From: Bacteroidota bacterium | GTDB lineage: Bacteria > Bacteroidota > Ignavibacteria > UBA10030 | NCBI GenBank assembly: GCA_025454835.1 | Contig: JALONQ010000003.1 | Location: 131,273 to 195,272 of the forward strand | Direction of reading: 5' to 3' | DNA length: 64,000 nucleotides | Shown: in pieces, positions 5,797 through 10,433 of the stretch | Numbering within the stretch: position 1 is the first letter of the stretch | Layout of the letters: the number at the start of each line of letters is the position of its first letter | The notes under the pieces: model-generated | Databases searched by the model: none | Told to the model about the DNA's origin: nothing | The model's input: the letters and a program-made list of their open reading frames with translations, nothing else | Position numbers and translations under genes: made by a program

Positions 5797-5835
5797 CAAC
5801 AACGCCCCGTCCGAGATGGATGGGGCGTTCTGTTG
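5797..5835 (+). terminator. Rho-independent terminator after the E1-PLP-SDR operon
   Basis: The stem AACGCCCC / GGGGCGTT (8 bp, perfect; 5801-5808 with 5822-5829) has a 13-base loop and is followed by CTGTTG. The left flank CAAC and the right flank can extend the stem. It is on the strand of the preceding operon and about 80 bases past its stop. Confidence 0.65.
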
Positions 5836-5880
5836 AGGGCCGGGAGGTGTTGGCCGTGTCGGTGTCCGGTCGCCGTCGGC

Positions 5881-6073
5881 GTCCGGTCGGGGACCGGAGT
5901 TGGACGCTGAGTCGCGTCCGGTCGGGGACCGGAGTTGGACGCTGAGTCGCATCCGGTCGGGGACCGGAGTTGGACGCTGAGTCGCGTCCGGTCGGGGACC
6001 GGAGTTGGACGCTGAGTCGCGTCCGGTCGGGGACCGGAGTTGGACGCTGAGTCGCGTCCGGTCGGGGACCGGA
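5881..6073. repeat. 35-bp tandem repeat, ~5.5 copies, hairpin in each unit
   Basis: The units begin at 5881, 5916, 5951, 5986, 6021 and 6056; the last is truncated at about 6073, three bases before the stop codon of the minus-strand hydrolase. The copies are identical except for one G-to-A change at 5951. Each unit contains the perfect inverted repeat CCGGTC-GGG-GACCGG. All copies abut with no unique spacer, so this is not a CRISPR array. A divergent half-unit seems to precede the array at 5868-5880. Confidence 0.93.
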
Positions 6074-6075
6074 CT

Positions 6076-7017
6076 TTACCGCCGCAGGTTTTTCAGGAAG
6101 AGGTCGGCGGCGGTCCAGAAGTCTTTGGGCTTCTCCAGCCACGGGAAGGCGCCGGAGTTGCGGATCTCCTTATACTTTGCCGTCTTCAGGGCCTTCCGGA
6201 TGCGGTCGGCGGTTCGCCGGTCCACCGGGTCCTTGTCGCCCTGGATGATCATCGTCGGCGCTTTGAACGACGGAAGCAGGTCGTGCATGCGGGGCGAGCG
6301 GTCCTTGAACGCGGCCCAATACGTCTCAGCGACTGCGGACACATACGTGCGCTCATTGATGAGAGAGCGCACGTCTTCGAGGGACCGCCGGTCGACGAAG
6401 TACCCCCCCAGCATGGCTCGGAACTGCTCAAGCTTCGCCTTGGGCTTCTGGGGCGACCAGGAGCTGATGTGACGCCATTGATTGAAGAGCGCGGAATCTT
6501 CCTTCGACATCCGGGCGCCGATGTTGCGATGGTAGTAGTCGAGGAATCCGGCATCGACTCCCGTCGGTCCGATCAGCAGCAAACCGCGGATGCCTTCGGG
6601 AAACAGCGAAGCGTACGTGAGAGCAACGCTTCCGCCGAACGCATGTCCCACGACCACCCACCGCTTGATCTGCAGATGCTTTCGAAGCGCCTCGAGGTCC
6701 TCGGCGACGCGCCGTGGTGCGACATTGGCCGTATCGAGCCGGGTGATCGTCGAGCCCCCCGTTCCGCGCATGTCGATCAGAATGGTCCTGAACCGCTTGC
6801 CAAGGTCCTGCGCCAGGGTCGCAAGATAGTCGTTCGAAGCGCCCGCCAAGCCGCCCACGACGACGAGCGGCTGCCCCGACCCGTATTCGCGGTAGAAGAG
6901 GGTCGAGCCGTCCACTGGGAGCGTGGTCGAGGTCTGGGCGGAAACGACGGACAGCGTCGTGCTGAGAAAGGTGACGAGGACGAGAAGGTCTCGGCGAAGG
7001 GTCACATGGATACCCAT
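6076..7017 (-). CDS. Secreted alpha/beta-hydrolase-fold protein lacking catalytic Ser and His
   Basis: This 313-residue protein has an N-terminal signal peptide (LLVLVTFLSTTLSVVSA) and a proline-iminopeptidase-like alpha/beta-hydrolase domain. The nucleophile elbow should read GHSFGG but reads GHAFGG (Ala encoded by GCG). The position of the catalytic His, normally GHFPWLEKP in relatives, reads GAFPWLEKP (GCC). The acid residue in QGDKDP is kept. Both substitutions are clear in the DNA, so as sequenced the protein cannot use the usual triad. The frame is otherwise intact and full length, which points to a binding or regulatory pseudoenzyme rather than decay. The start is the Met before the signal peptide; frame extends upstream to 7113 but without a signal-like start. 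Confidence 0.85.
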   Translation of the reverse strand: MGIHVTLRRDLLVLVTFLSTTLSVVSAQTSTTLPVDGSTLFYREYGSGQPLVVVGGLAGASNDYLATLAQDLGKRFRTILIDMRGTGGSTITRLDTANVAPRRVAEDLEALRKHLQIKRWVVVGHAFGGSVALTYASLFPEGIRGLLLIGPTGVDAGFLDYYHRNIGARMSKEDSALFNQWRHISSWSPQKPKAKLEQFRAMLGGYFVDRRSLEDVRSLINERTYVSAVAETYWAAFKDRSPRMHDLLPSFKAPTMIIQGDKDPVDRRTADRIRKALKTAKYKEIRNSGAFPWLEKPKDFWTAADLFLKNLRR

Positions 7018-7099
7018 CAATGAACGCGCCCGGGACGCGGTGCGCCCGGGCGGTTCAAAGATGCGGAAGAATGGGGAAAAAGGGAAGGCATCGCTCGAA

Positions 7100-7621
7100 T
7101 TATCGCTTTTCACCGTGTGGACGTGCGATCAAGGTCACTCCGCTGGCAGGTCCGTCAAAGTGAAAGACTTCGACAGTCGAGGTCGACGATGTCCAGATAC
7201 GGCGATCTGGACCGGATCCGTTCGCCAACGAAGCTGGACCGTACCGTTGTTTGATTCTCAACCAGACAGAATCATGACGTCCACGCGTCTGCCCTGGAAG
7301 TCCTGCAAATTCGACAACGTTGATCAGCACCCGATGCAATGTTGAGTCCGTTGATCGAATCGCGTACATCACACGAAGCGTTTCCCCAAAGGCAACTTCC
7401 CTGCGGATGAAAAAGATCAGGCCATTCTTTTCGACGACCTCCTTCGTACGAACCGACCGCATAAGTTCCATGGTTGCATCAGTCGACATTGAACGGATTT
7501 GCGCAATGGTCGCACCCCATTGAACTCGTTCAAAGAGATCAACAGGTGCGTCCGTCAATTGGGCGACGAGCGAACCATTACAGGACAGAAACAACCCAAG
7601 GCGAATGAGGAGCGTCTTCAT
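7100..7621 (-). CDS. Hypothetical secreted protein downstream of double-glycine peptide
   Basis: This 173-residue protein has a probable signal peptide (LLIRLGLFLSCNGSLVAQ). I do not recognise the family. The mature part is mixed alpha/beta with no clear cysteine motif and no membrane segment. The base composition is noticeably more AT-rich than that of neighbouring genes, a possible sign of recent transfer. The start at 7621 follows GGAGAG at a good distance. It lies 43 bases after the Cys-rich peptide gene and is probably transcribed with it and the thioredoxin-like gene, so a role in handling or immunity to the peptide is possible but unproven. Confidence 0.7.
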   Translation of the reverse strand: MKTLLIRLGLFLSCNGSLVAQLTDAPVDLFERVQWGATIAQIRSMSTDATMELMRSVRTKEVVEKNGLIFFIRREVAFGETLRVMYAIRSTDSTLHRVLINVVEFAGLPGQTRGRHDSVWLRIKQRYGPASLANGSGPDRRIWTSSTSTVEVFHFDGPASGVTLIARPHGEKR

Positions 7622-7664
7622 AATCTCTCCGGCAGGAATGTCGAGCGAAACCGTCCTAATTCGA

Positions 7665-7982
7665 TCAAGCAAACAGACCAAAGAACCAACTGATCGCACA
7701 GGCAACACCTGAATAGACGCCAACGGTGCCGCATGCGAGCAGATCTGCCAATCCATCGAGTTCTCCCGCCGATTCCAAGGTTCCAATACAACTCTCAAAC
7801 GCCCCCACGCCAACTTCGATACAAGGCGTGTTCCCCCCCACGATGCAGTCCATCTCAGCTTGCGTGAGCCGCACCGAGACCTGCGGCGCCGTTGCCGCGA
7901 CTGTGAGCGGCTGGTCGGCCTGATCGAACCCAAAGGCGACGGCAATGATGGCCGCCAGGATGAACAACGCTGAACGTACCAT
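7665..7982 (-). CDS. Cys-rich double-glycine (bacteriocin-like) precursor peptide
   Basis: This 105-residue protein begins with a hydrophobic segment (SALFILAAIIAVAFGF) that could be a signal peptide. Then comes LTQAEMDCIVGG, which matches the LxxxEMxxIxGG pattern of double-glycine leaders of bacteriocin-type peptides. Downstream of GG are about 60 residues rich in Gly, Ala, Leu and Val with four cysteines and a hydrophobic end (AISWFFGLFA). The ribosome site AAGGAGG lies directly upstream of the ATG. The gene sits between a membrane-anchored thioredoxin-like protein and a secreted protein. A secreted, disulfide-bonded antimicrobial or signalling peptide is the most natural reading; no specific family is identified. 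Confidence 0.72.
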   Translation of the reverse strand: MVRSALFILAAIIAVAFGFDQADQPLTVAATAPQVSVRLTQAEMDCIVGGNTPCIEVGVGAFESCIGTLESAGELDGLADLLACGTVGVYSGVACAISWFFGLFA

Positions 7983-8118
7983 GATGAACCTCCTTCTGCA
8001 ACAATCGGTGAATGGATCGTGAAGCCGCCAGCCGCCCGCTGCGGCCCATCCGCCCGGCATTGCGTGTTGCCGATCCCCGGGGCCGACCGGGAATCGTCTT
8101 CGCGCGCCGCCGCGCGGT

Positions 8119-8769
8119 TCAGCGGACAGAAAGCGGCGCTGTCCTCTCGTTCGTTAAGTTTCGATCATTGACCGCTCTGCCGGAGGCATCGCCGAGTTCC
8201 CCCGGCGTCCCATCCTCCCCAAAGGAATCCACCGCCGAAAGCCCCGACGAGCCCCCGTTGCAGTAGCGGATGATCATGACACTATCTTCAGCAAACGACC
8301 GTCTGCCGACCCGCATCAGGTCGACCCGGTCTGTCTCACTCACGAATAGCACGGTCGGAACCCGGCGAATGCCGAGATCAACGAGCGCATCGTGCGGAGA
8401 TATCGTCCAGATGGGGAACGGCTCGTTGCGGTCGGCCGCGAACGCTGCGGTGGCGGCCGGCTCGCTCAACGACACGACGAAAACATCGCAGCCGGTCGCC
8501 GCATCGCGCACACGCCGGAGATGTTCCATCGTTTCGTGACAATGCGGACACGACACCAGGAAGAAGAACAACAGATGTCGGCGTCCATATGGCGCGACCA
8601 GGCGGATCGAGCGGCCGTCGGTCGCGTGCAAACGTAGGACCGGGCGCGTCGAGCCTTCGATGGTGTACCGATCGAACGCTGCGAGCAGCAAGATGAACGC
8701 GAGGCCGCCGATGATGACGAGCGCCGCGCCGGCGGCAAGCCAGCGGCGTTGGGTGATGCGTCCCCTCAT
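8119..8769 (-). CDS. Membrane-anchored thioredoxin-like (TlpA/redoxin-type) protein
   Basis: This 216-residue protein has one N-terminal membrane helix (about residues 11-32) and then a periplasmic thioredoxin fold. The active site is CPHC in FFLVSCPHCHE (about residues 74-77), and the cis-proline is in RRVPTVLF. The C-terminal ~35 residues are polar and probably unstructured. Proteins of this kind reduce or form disulfides outside the cytoplasm. The gene is first in a transcript that continues into the Cys-rich peptide, suggesting it acts on that peptide's cysteines. A strong promoter lies 70-100 bases upstream. Confidence 0.85.
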   Translation of the reverse strand: MRGRITQRRWLAAGAALVIIGGLAFILLLAAFDRYTIEGSTRPVLRLHATDGRSIRLVAPYGRRHLLFFFLVSCPHCHETMEHLRRVRDAATGCDVFVVSLSEPAATAAFAADRNEPFPIWTISPHDALVDLGIRRVPTVLFVSETDRVDLMRVGRRSFAEDSVMIIRYCNGGSSGLSAVDSFGEDGTPGELGDASGRAVNDRNLTNERTAPLSVR

Positions 8770-8837
8770 GGCGATGTGCTGCGAGCGACATCGATGGGTA
8801 AAGACATCAACGATTCATTCCGTCGCTTCGCTCTGCG

Positions 8838-8866
8838 AATATAATCCAGCCGATAGCCCTTGTCAA
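8838..8866 (-). promoter_or_regulatory. Sigma-70-type promoter for the thioredoxin/peptide operon
   Basis: On the minus strand TTGACA (8861-8866) is followed after exactly 17 bases by TATATT (8838-8843). This is the best -35/-10 pair I found in the window. Transcription would start near 8831, giving a leader of about 60 bases before the thioredoxin-like gene at 8769. Confidence 0.7.
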
Positions 8867-9014
8867 GAAGCGAAGAGGGCGAGCGACGAACTTAATGACT
8901 CTGTGGAGATAGAAGGACGGCAGGCTGGAGCGGACTCAATACGACGAACCAAGGGAACGCTTGGCGCTTGCTCCGCGCTCCGCATGAGACGATTCGCGGG
9001 TTCTCCACCGTTTC

Positions 9015-10121
9015 TTAGTACGCCCGTATGACCAACTCCCCCGCGATGCTCAGCCCCATCCACCAGTATGCCAAGCGCATCCAGTGCTCGTGATGCTTCT
9101 TAAGGTGGCGCCACCATCGTGCAGCTACGGCAGCGATAAGCAAGAACGGGACCACCAGCAGCGAGGCGATCAACGGCGTCAGGTCGCGGCCCAGCCATCC
9201 CGTCACGTTGAATTCCGGATTCAACGCTGAGCCGTAGAGGAATAACAAATGGGCGATGTAGATAAAGAGCGATTCCACGCCCAGCGTCGTGAGCCATCCC
9301 GGCAGCATGTACCGTTCCCCCGCCGTGCCGACGACGCGGTCCTCCGCAAACCACAATCCCCCCATCCCCAACAACAACAAACCAAGACGCATCCAGAAGA
9401 AGATCGGACCCGTCGTCCAGAAATCCATGCCTTCGTGCAGCGTGAACGGCACGAGGTCCATGAGCCATCCTCCGGCGATGAAGGTGGCGCCGATCGCCAG
9501 AAGCCGGGACATATACCGGCGCTCCGCCTCCGCGCGCCGCGCCCGGAGGAAACCCCACGAAGCTACGACGCCGGCCAGCACGAATGCCAAATTGGGGAAC
9601 ACCGGGAATGCGGAGCCATACCGCCCTGTGAGCGCGGTGGACCACCAAAGCGGCCCCCCGTGAACCGCCTCGGAAGCCCAGACGGCGGGGGCCGTCAGCG
9701 CGATCATGGCCCCGGACACGATGACGAGCGCGAGGAACCGCCGGTCGTCGCGTGCCAGCAGGTACAGCAGGCGAAGCAGGACGATCGAGAGCCCTATCAA
9801 CTGAAGGACGTCAAACTGCAGGAACGCGGTCCAGTGCGACGGGTCCGCCGAGCGGAGGGTCTTGCTGAGCGAAAAGAAGGGGAGATGCAGGGCGTAGCCG
9901 ATGAGGACGAGCAGCACGCCGCGCCACAGACGTCGATAGAACGGCCACGACCAGCCCTTCAGTACATGGGCCTTCCGTTGCGTCGCGATGGCGAACGTAA
10001 AACCCGCGCCGAACAGGAATCCGGGCGCGGTCAGGCCGTGGAACAACTCGTGGGCGCGAAAGACCGGTCCCTCCTGCCACGCCATCCCCATCAGCTGACG
10101 GACGAGATGCCCCTCGAGCAT
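9015..10121 (-). CDS. HGSNAT/DUF1624-like multi-spanning membrane protein
   Basis: From the ATG at 10121 this is a 368-residue protein with about ten membrane helices. It is related to the DUF1624 / heparan-alpha-glucosaminide N-acetyltransferase-like group of integral membrane acyltransferases. The conserved start of the family, with a motif like FLDLYRGLIVVFMLEGH, is present, but its first half is encoded upstream of that ATG in the same open frame up to about 10166. No ATG, GTG or TTG lies between 10121 and the in-frame stop at 10287-10289, so either a rare start (CTG at 10181) is used or the start codon has been lost. The substrate is unknown. Confidence 0.75.
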   Translation of the reverse strand: MLEGHLVRQLMGMAWQEGPVFRAHELFHGLTAPGFLFGAGFTFAIATQRKAHVLKGWSWPFYRRLWRGVLLVLIGYALHLPFFSLSKTLRSADPSHWTAFLQFDVLQLIGLSIVLLRLLYLLARDDRRFLALVIVSGAMIALTAPAVWASEAVHGGPLWWSTALTGRYGSAFPVFPNLAFVLAGVVASWGFLRARRAEAERRYMSRLLAIGATFIAGGWLMDLVPFTLHEGMDFWTTGPIFFWMRLGLLLLGMGGLWFAEDRVVGTAGERYMLPGWLTTLGVESLFIYIAHLLFLYGSALNPEFNVTGWLGRDLTPLIASLLVVPFLLIAAVAARWWRHLKKHHEHWMRLAYWWMGLSIAGELVIRAY

Positions 10122-10181
10122 GAAGACAACAATGAGTCCCCGGTACAGGTCGAGGAAGGAATATCGGTGGGAGGAATCCAG

Positions 10182-10433
10182 TGGAGATCCAGGAAGAAGG
10201 CGCGAGGTGATGGACGACCAGTGAAGAGCGAAAGGTGAGTCTGTGGGAAAAGTTGTTTCAGACCTGCCTGATGGACTTCGGCGAGCTCAGTCGAGCCGCC
10301 GGCAGGCTACGTGTGATCTGTAGTGGGCCTCCGGCGGTGAGGGGTGAAATGCAGTCGTGTATCGCGATCTGATGAAGACGTTCGCCAAGGCCGATGCACG
10401 AGTCCCAGCCGAGACCACCTTTGGGACGGTCTG
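10182..10433. other. Intergenic stretch without a recognised gene
   Basis: Between the membrane protein and the thioesterase gene I see no supported gene. A segment near 10265-10312 (GACTTCGGCGAGCTCAG followed by CCGCCGGCAGGC) resembles short palindromic repeat words that recur between genes of many environmental bacteria. This is recognition from memory, not a search. Confidence 0.35.

Follow-up and report, generated by a model that had tools for sequence, protein, structure and literature searches.

The window analyzed here is a 64,000-nucleotide stretch of DNA from a Bacteroidota bacterium (assembly GCA_025454835.1, contig JALONQ010000003.1, positions 131,273 to 195,272 of the forward strand). 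It carries a three-gene cluster for a membrane-anchored thioredoxin-like protein, a 105-residue peptide precursor and a secreted accessory protein. In the precursor, a signal-peptide-like N-terminus is followed by a double-glycine leader and a four-cysteine core; this combination of signal peptide and double glycine is a family trait, not an accident. The architecture of the system is well supported. We consider it probable that the cluster produces a bacteriocin-like peptide, which would be exported through Sec, lose its leader outside the inner membrane and be oxidised as a helical hairpin by the thioredoxin-like protein. With slightly better than even confidence, we further propose that Sec-dependent extracytoplasmic double-glycine maturation exists in Bacteroidota and Acidobacteriota; it would yield a large, diverse class of exported peptides, many of them nested-disulfide hairpins (CX6C, CX10C and CX6CX3C twins). 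The leader would be cut independently of transport, by a protease able to act in trans. The features of the cluster are as follows.

8866-8838, minus strand: promoter TTGACA-17-TATATT, 11 of 12 consensus matches
8769-8119, minus strand: membrane-anchored CPHC thioredoxin-like gene, 216 residues, Pfam Redoxin/AhpC-TSA
7982-7665, minus strand: peptide precursor, 105 residues, with signal-peptide-like start, double-glycine leader and four-cysteine core; syntenic homologue at L030:6033-6338
7929-7982, minus strand: signal-peptide-like N-terminus (residues 1-18) from hydropathy, its end at residue 18 being a guess
7833-7868, minus strand: double-glycine leader motif LTQAEMDCIVGG (residues 39-50), hydrophobic at -12, -7 and -4, glycine at -2 and -1
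7668-7832, minus strand: 55-residue core with twin CX10C, predicted two-helix hairpin (cysteine gaps; AlphaFold2)
7621-7100, minus strand: secreted accessory protein, 173 residues, matched by the operon-member profile; candidate immunity protein or chaperone

An earlier note on this DNA, made from the letters alone, had pointed to the promoter, to the membrane-anchored CPHC thioredoxin-like gene, to a 105-residue peptide with a leader motif and four downstream cysteines, and to a secreted, more AT-rich protein of no known family; all four were borne out. The promoter lies on the minus strand and is the sole such match in 5800-10200, where shuffled sequence gives a mean of 0.7; when the 250 bp preceding the thioredoxin-like gene were shuffled 200 times, no shuffle equalled its score. 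Perfect or near-perfect promoters are also found upstream of the thioredoxin-like genes of three other operons (L034, L073 and L075). The thioredoxin-like protein has an N-terminal hydrophobic segment, a CPHC motif and a Pfam Redoxin match (E 9.1e-8). The third gene coincides with a dip in guanine-plus-cytosine content (51-54% in windows 7000-7749, versus 61-65% in 6500-7249 and 7750-8749), and its protein matched no Pfam family. A search of Rfam matched nothing in the window.

The N-terminus of the peptide has a mean hydropathy of 2.82 over 15 residues, starting from residue 5. The leader LTQAEMDCIVGG ends at residue 50 and follows the double-glycine rule, which is defined by hydrophobic residues at -12, -7 and -4 and by GG, GA or GS at -2/-1. 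Four cysteines are located downstream, and a fifth one, not mentioned in the earlier note, is at leader position -5. Nothing in Pfam or NCBIfam, bacteriocin families included, matched the peptide up to E 10. The homologue search with the peptide alone, which the earlier note had proposed, returned only weak matches, in 6 of 150 genomes at E ≤0.1 (its own genome included). After this weak search, we anchored further searches on the thioredoxin-like gene and the third gene, and later on the C39 peptidase.

The conservation of the three-gene order, which had been left to be checked, was confirmed in the congeneric genome G001; it carries the same three genes in the same order, and their surroundings also agree, with the same short-chain dehydrogenase nearby. 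Upstream of its thioredoxin-like gene, the promoter hexamers and the 17-base spacer are unchanged. The cluster proteins of the window and G001 are 27-37% identical, whereas the identities of five neighbouring genes are 55-78%. In the earlier note, homologues without the double glycine or the cysteines were held to count against the peptide reading; the G001 homologue (L030:6033-6338) has GA at this position, a variant that is accepted by C39 peptidases according to the account in PMC10885120, yet it keeps all five cysteines. Because the gene order, the exact promoter and the five cysteines recur in the congener at 27-37% protein identity, the window cluster is not a product of chance.

A search of 150 relatives with the window thioredoxin-like protein matched seven places outside the genus, spread over six genomes; six of the seven are in C39 operons. 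The plan of these operons is a thioredoxin-like gene, a stand-alone C39 gene and a gene for a small exported double-glycine peptide, often accompanied by a relative of the third gene, a Yip1-like membrane protein, a MauE/DoxX protein or ATP-binding cassette (ABC) genes. The operon-type C39 frames are 163-224 residues in length, and each of the 22 stand-alone C39 proteins checked has a hydrophobic segment among its N-terminal 60 residues. In an alignment of 19 C39 sequences, Q, Cys and His are invariant and Asp is nearly so. The C39 profile has matches at E 1e-10 in 45 of the 294 genomes of the class sample. Matches at E ≤2e-32 come from 18 genomes (19 places) and lie in short frames; among the weaker matches, 27 of 31 places have frames longer than 700 residues, as peptidase-ABC transporters do. 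Some genomes with C39 matches are named as Ignavibacteria or other Bacteroidota. In the phylum sample, at least two further stand-alone C39 loci (G387 and G428) were examined, among the matches listed. Two Acidobacteriota loci (L092 and L094) combine a thioredoxin-like gene, C39, a small exported candidate peptide and ABC genes; a third one, L093, is cut by the contig end. Short C39-like proteins were also seen in Patescibacteria (L095, L096 and L097); they have no obvious N-terminal hydrophobic segment and other gene surroundings.

The genome of the window has exactly one C39 that we could find (PF03412, 89.4 bits, cut-off 22), a stand-alone protein of 163 residues that retains its catalytic residues. 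It is encoded at L071:6351-6842, ∼47 kb away from the cluster on the same contig; its neighbours are dnaX on one side and, on the other, a gene that matches PorV weakly (E 0.0084, below cut-off). The earlier note's statement that no C39 peptidase or exporter is present holds for the window cluster, but the contig does carry this stand-alone C39 elsewhere. Likewise, its proposal of a new secreted-peptide system agrees with the leader behind a signal-peptide-like start, the thiol-disulfide protein and the conserved order, but has to be amended in that C39 does belong to the system in the relatives. Among solved structures, our C39 comes closest to 6MPZ (E 4e-7), which is the double-glycine protease domain of a peptidase-ABC transporter, and in NCBIfam it is matched best by the peptidase part of an NHLP bacteriocin exporter (62.1 bits); the FapD and FilB models gave 27.1 and 30.6 bits, respectively, the FapD cut-off being 330. 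A broken peptidase-ABC system was ruled out, as the only C39 found in the genome stands alone and keeps its catalytic residues.

The whole operon is located beside dnaX in five genomes of genus g10 (G010, G022, G025, G027 and G031); the sixth g10 genome, G029, was left out, its contig ending after dnaX. Because these five genomes keep the whole operon at dnaX, the C39 of our genome stays there and G001 is without C39, the operon beside dnaX most likely broke up, leaving the protease in trans in this genome. Like the window cluster, the operon of G076 is without its own C39, and the only C39 of that genome lies elsewhere.

Such a break-up would also fit a decaying remnant, in which C39 stayed at dnaX and the three genes make no processed peptide. 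C39 is unlinked here and was not found in the congener, where GG has changed to GA; the Yip1-like part was found in neither genome; and the cluster proteins, at 27-37% identity, differ far more than the five neighbours at 55-78%. However, all ORFs (open reading frames) are intact in both genomes, the five cysteines and their symmetric spacing are kept at 27% identity, the promoter hexamers are kept exactly, and a C39 located elsewhere is seen for the G076 operon too. We therefore regard decay as unlikely and favour a functional cluster served by its protease in trans.

The peptides near C39 genes were then surveyed by a motif scan, which combined the classical leader rule with an N-terminal hydrophobic stretch and covered the C39 strand within 3.5 kb of C39. 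The 26 C39 loci are those fetched and not a random sample; control loci were scanned with the same motif. The pattern matched in 23 of the 26 loci, and a real candidate was seen on inspection in 21 of 26 (counting L036, with the motif VVAG). There were 29 matches in 166 kb of one strand near C39, versus 3 in the 44 control loci (347 strand-kb). Of the 29, 22 were judged on inspection to be real candidates and 7 to be membrane-protein fragments, the latter including the only matches of L093 and L094; L074, L092 and L071 gave no match. In the 20 of 26 loci with the motif, position -12 is always L or M, and -7 is always M, L or I; 16 of these loci have V, I, L or A at -4, and the other 4 have S, T or N; the last leader residue, -1, is G in 17 loci, A in two and S in one. 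When both strands of the 64-kb window were scanned in the same way, the peptide and one membrane-protein fragment were found.

These results bear on whether the double glycine is coincidental, that is, whether the product is a secreted cysteine-rich protein cut by signal peptidase only, with Cys -5 retained in the mature protein. The cysteine at -5 is kept in the window, L030 and L031, and the congener has GA, as might be expected of such a protein. However, positions -12, -7, -2 and -1 obey the double-glycine rule in 20 of 26 C39 loci, with -4 hydrophobic or small; the motif ORF lies near a double-glycine peptidase gene in C39 loci; and the leader cysteine is not general in the family. A coincidental double glycine is thus very improbable, and mere chance resemblance was ruled out by the conservation in the congener and the motif enrichment near C39 genes. 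Two further loci deserve mention. At L074:3045-3529, the signal-peptide half and the double-glycine half are in different frames, which may reflect a broken gene or an assembly error. At L161:5977-6949 (Bacteroidota, G387), three small exported ORFs stand in a row, and two of them carry double-glycine motifs. The row is flanked by a MauE gene on one side and a membrane-protein gene on the other; genes for C39 and ABC ATPase follow further on, and the locus has the look of a multi-peptide bacteriocin cluster.

The third gene was analyzed with a profile built from 11 operon members, with the window and G001 left out. The profile matched the window copy at E 2.5e-6 and the G001 copy at E 3.1e-12; among 2967 non-redundant ORFs (fetched loci and window), it gave no unrelated match up to E 0.1. 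In the 294 genomes, the third-gene family occurs in 14, stand-alone C39 in 18 and both in 12, an overlap that is partly circular, both profiles being built from operon members, and is given without significance. Beyond the genus of the window, the third-gene profile added only G070 and a second G076 locus, both of which are double-glycine peptide operons; in G076, C39 and the third gene are in different places. As judged by these profile matches, the third gene belongs to the system and is a conserved operon part. A thioredoxin-like profile built only from genes of stand-alone-C39 operons matched the window copy at E 3.9e-23, and we rate this link as weaker evidence than that of the third-gene profile. 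The AlphaFold2 model of the third protein has a mean pLDDT (predicted local distance difference test score) of 60.5, and its best Foldseek match, 4ygt (YjgB, DUF4309; E 7.5e-3, template-modelling score 0.40), is a hint only. Of the Yip1-like proteins, four were scanned with Pfam; Yip1 was matched by that of L073 (E 4.2e-14) and not by those of L034, L039 and L161. The word permease is a label given by eye.

The core cysteines of the window are separated by gaps of 11, 19 and 11, which makes a twin CX10C. Mirror-equal outer gaps (7,n,7 or 11,n,11) were found in 10 of 17 four-cysteine cores. Related sequences are not independent, and a version with one core per genus, limited to four-cysteine cores, was therefore used: 6 of 9 cores are symmetric, the chance mean is 0.45, and 0 of 200000 random placements reach 6. 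A mirror order is also seen in L077:126-542, a GA-motif precursor whose six-cysteine core has gaps of 7, 4, 31, 4 and 7; it is a candidate for a three-rung disulfide ladder. Gaps of 4, 7 and 11 would put the cysteines on one helix face, which argues for an antiparallel helical hairpin with nested disulfides. In the AlphaFold2 model of the window core, obtained with a four-sequence alignment, helices span residues 4-22 and 28-50 (mean pLDDT 83.4; predicted template-modelling score 0.59), and the two proposed cysteine pairs are symmetric about the turn. From the gaps and the model, we infer that the core is an antiparallel helical hairpin with predicted nested disulfides.

Taken together, these observations suggest the following pathway. 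The precursor would cross the inner membrane through Sec by means of its N-terminal signal peptide, as its sequence indicates. A membrane-anchored C39 facing the periplasm would then cut after the double glycine, in line with the conserved association of the two genes; in this genome, the cutting enzyme would be the sole C39, ∼47 kb away beside dnaX, whereas the operon itself encodes it in most of the relatives examined. Nested disulfides, C54-C95 and C65-C84 (precursor numbering), may next be formed by the thioredoxin-like protein, the proposed oxidase or isomerase of the peptide; the cysteine symmetry and the model point this way. More tentatively, the product may be antibacterial and bacteriocin-like, and the secreted protein at 7621-7100 and, in relatives, the ABC and Yip1-like membrane proteins might provide immunity or help with release. 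The antibacterial function is our best guess because of the leader type, the small diverse cores, the three small exported ORFs in L161 and the rapid divergence.

A product other than a toxin was also considered: the peptide could be structural or signalling, such as a surface fibre subunit or a quorum peptide, matured by a periplasmic C39, in the way that FapD serves the Fap amyloid system of Pseudomonas. FapD, as presented in PMC5557850, is a precedent of a Sec-exported periplasmic C39 needed for secretion, and our C39 weakly matches the FapD and FilB models (27.1 and 30.6 bits). These scores, however, are far under the FapD cut-off of 330 bits, and the best match is the peptidase part of the NHLP bacteriocin exporter at 62.1 bits; the cores are short, cysteine-rich and diverse, and the three small exported ORFs of L161 are more bacteriocin-like. 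We consider a non-toxin product improbable, and the bacteriocin-like peptide remains the preferred reading.

Several points weigh against this reading. As to the leader and the survey, the scan motif was drawn up once the first peptides were known and was thus not blind; the scan missed the motifs of the Acidobacteriota loci, which are degenerate; and the G001 leader ends in GA instead of GG. As to the protease, our C39 is unlinked and the motif scan of L071 found no peptide within 3.5 kb of it, so that it is paired with the window peptide by inference; no C39 was found in G001, where dnaX adjoins the next gene; and none was found in G070, which has a double-glycine peptide operon. The C39 topology is moderately supported: an excess of K/R before the hydrophobic segment was seen in 12 of 22 proteins, with 4 ties and 6 in reverse, our own copy among the last. 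As to the other operon parts, the promoter match upstream of the thioredoxin-like genes of L039, L036, L082 and L176 is no better than chance; a G118 protein outside any C39 operon scores 2.7e-19 with the thioredoxin-like profile, so that this link is not exclusive; and the Yip1-like part was not found in our genome or in G001. As to the hairpin, the symmetry test was set up after the pattern had been seen. Five g10 cores (gaps 14 or 15, 1 and 9), that of G104 (13, 16 and 15) and that of G021 (13, 14 and 14) have four cysteines in asymmetric order; 9 of 24 cores are without four cysteines, some having two or three; and two of the three six-cysteine cores (L038 and L076; gaps 8, 1, 1, 9 and 2) are asymmetric. 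Foldseek returned nothing for the hairpin at E 0.001, and AlphaFold2 readily proposes helical hairpins. Finally, the proposed pathway covers the steps up to the periplasm, with no candidate for an exit through the outer membrane.

Away from the cluster, the window contains a 35-base tandem unit at 5879-6073 (5.6 copies, 98% matches); the genes on either side of it encode a short-chain dehydrogenase and an alpha/beta-hydrolase.

Among known systems, the glycocins are close in several respects; their cysteine spacing is CX6C..CX6C. The accounts in PMC6405829 and PMC12457901 describe glycocins (sublancin, glycocin F, pallidocin and thermoglycocin) with a C39-cut leader, usually at a double glycine, with two helices nested by two disulfides and with thioredoxin-like genes in the cluster. 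Like them, the window system has a double-glycine leader that would be cut by C39 and a thioredoxin-like gene in the cluster; its symmetric twin CX10C and the AlphaFold2 model fit a hairpin with two nested disulfides, which the core may form. Different from the glycocins, it has a signal-peptide-like extension before the leader, a stand-alone C39, and CX10C and other spacings too; in glycocins, a fused peptidase-ABC transporter both exports and cuts, and a glycosyltransferase is carried. By Pfam, no glycosyltransferase was found among the three cluster genes and eight flanking genes; the operons of relatives were inspected by eye, and no genome-wide search was made. Assignment to the glycocins was ruled out, with neither a fused exporter nor a glycosyltransferase among the genes scanned.

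The system also resembles the class II bacteriocins and microcins that depend on peptidase-containing ABC transporters (PCATs), with its canonical leader, small core, C39 catalytic residues and 6MPZ as the nearest structure. Weak leader matches were seen in relatives, from L038 to Bacteriocin_IIc (E 0.12) and from L080 to the ComC and lichenicidin models (E 0.004). In contrast to PCAT bacteriocins, the leader here stands behind a signal-peptide-like start and no curated bacteriocin model was matched; no PCAT was found in the genome, the only C39 found being the 163-residue stand-alone protein with no ABC fusion. With FapD and FilB, the system shares a stand-alone C39 with an N-terminal export or anchor segment, FapD being the precedent for a periplasmic C39. 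For FapD, the substrate is unsettled, and canonical C39 sites are missing from the Fap proteins. Our C39 is far under the family cut-offs and its relatives have a canonical leader peptide near the gene; on the scores, its assignment to FapD or FilB was ruled out. In a search of the open-access literature, we recognised no description of a signal peptide, a double-glycine leader and a stand-alone C39 together. Double-glycine leaders are usually read as a sign of peptidase-ABC export, and a motif preceded by a signal peptide, without a transporter nearby, is easily overlooked. If the proposed pathway is correct, uncultured Bacteroidota and Acidobacteriota contain a class of secreted peptides that has gone unnoticed, and the C39 fold can serve in a role separate from transport. 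What FapD-like periplasmic C39 proteins cut could then be studied in a tractable model whose substrate is canonical. In addition, the symmetric arrangement of cysteines would be a compact design for stable helical hairpins.

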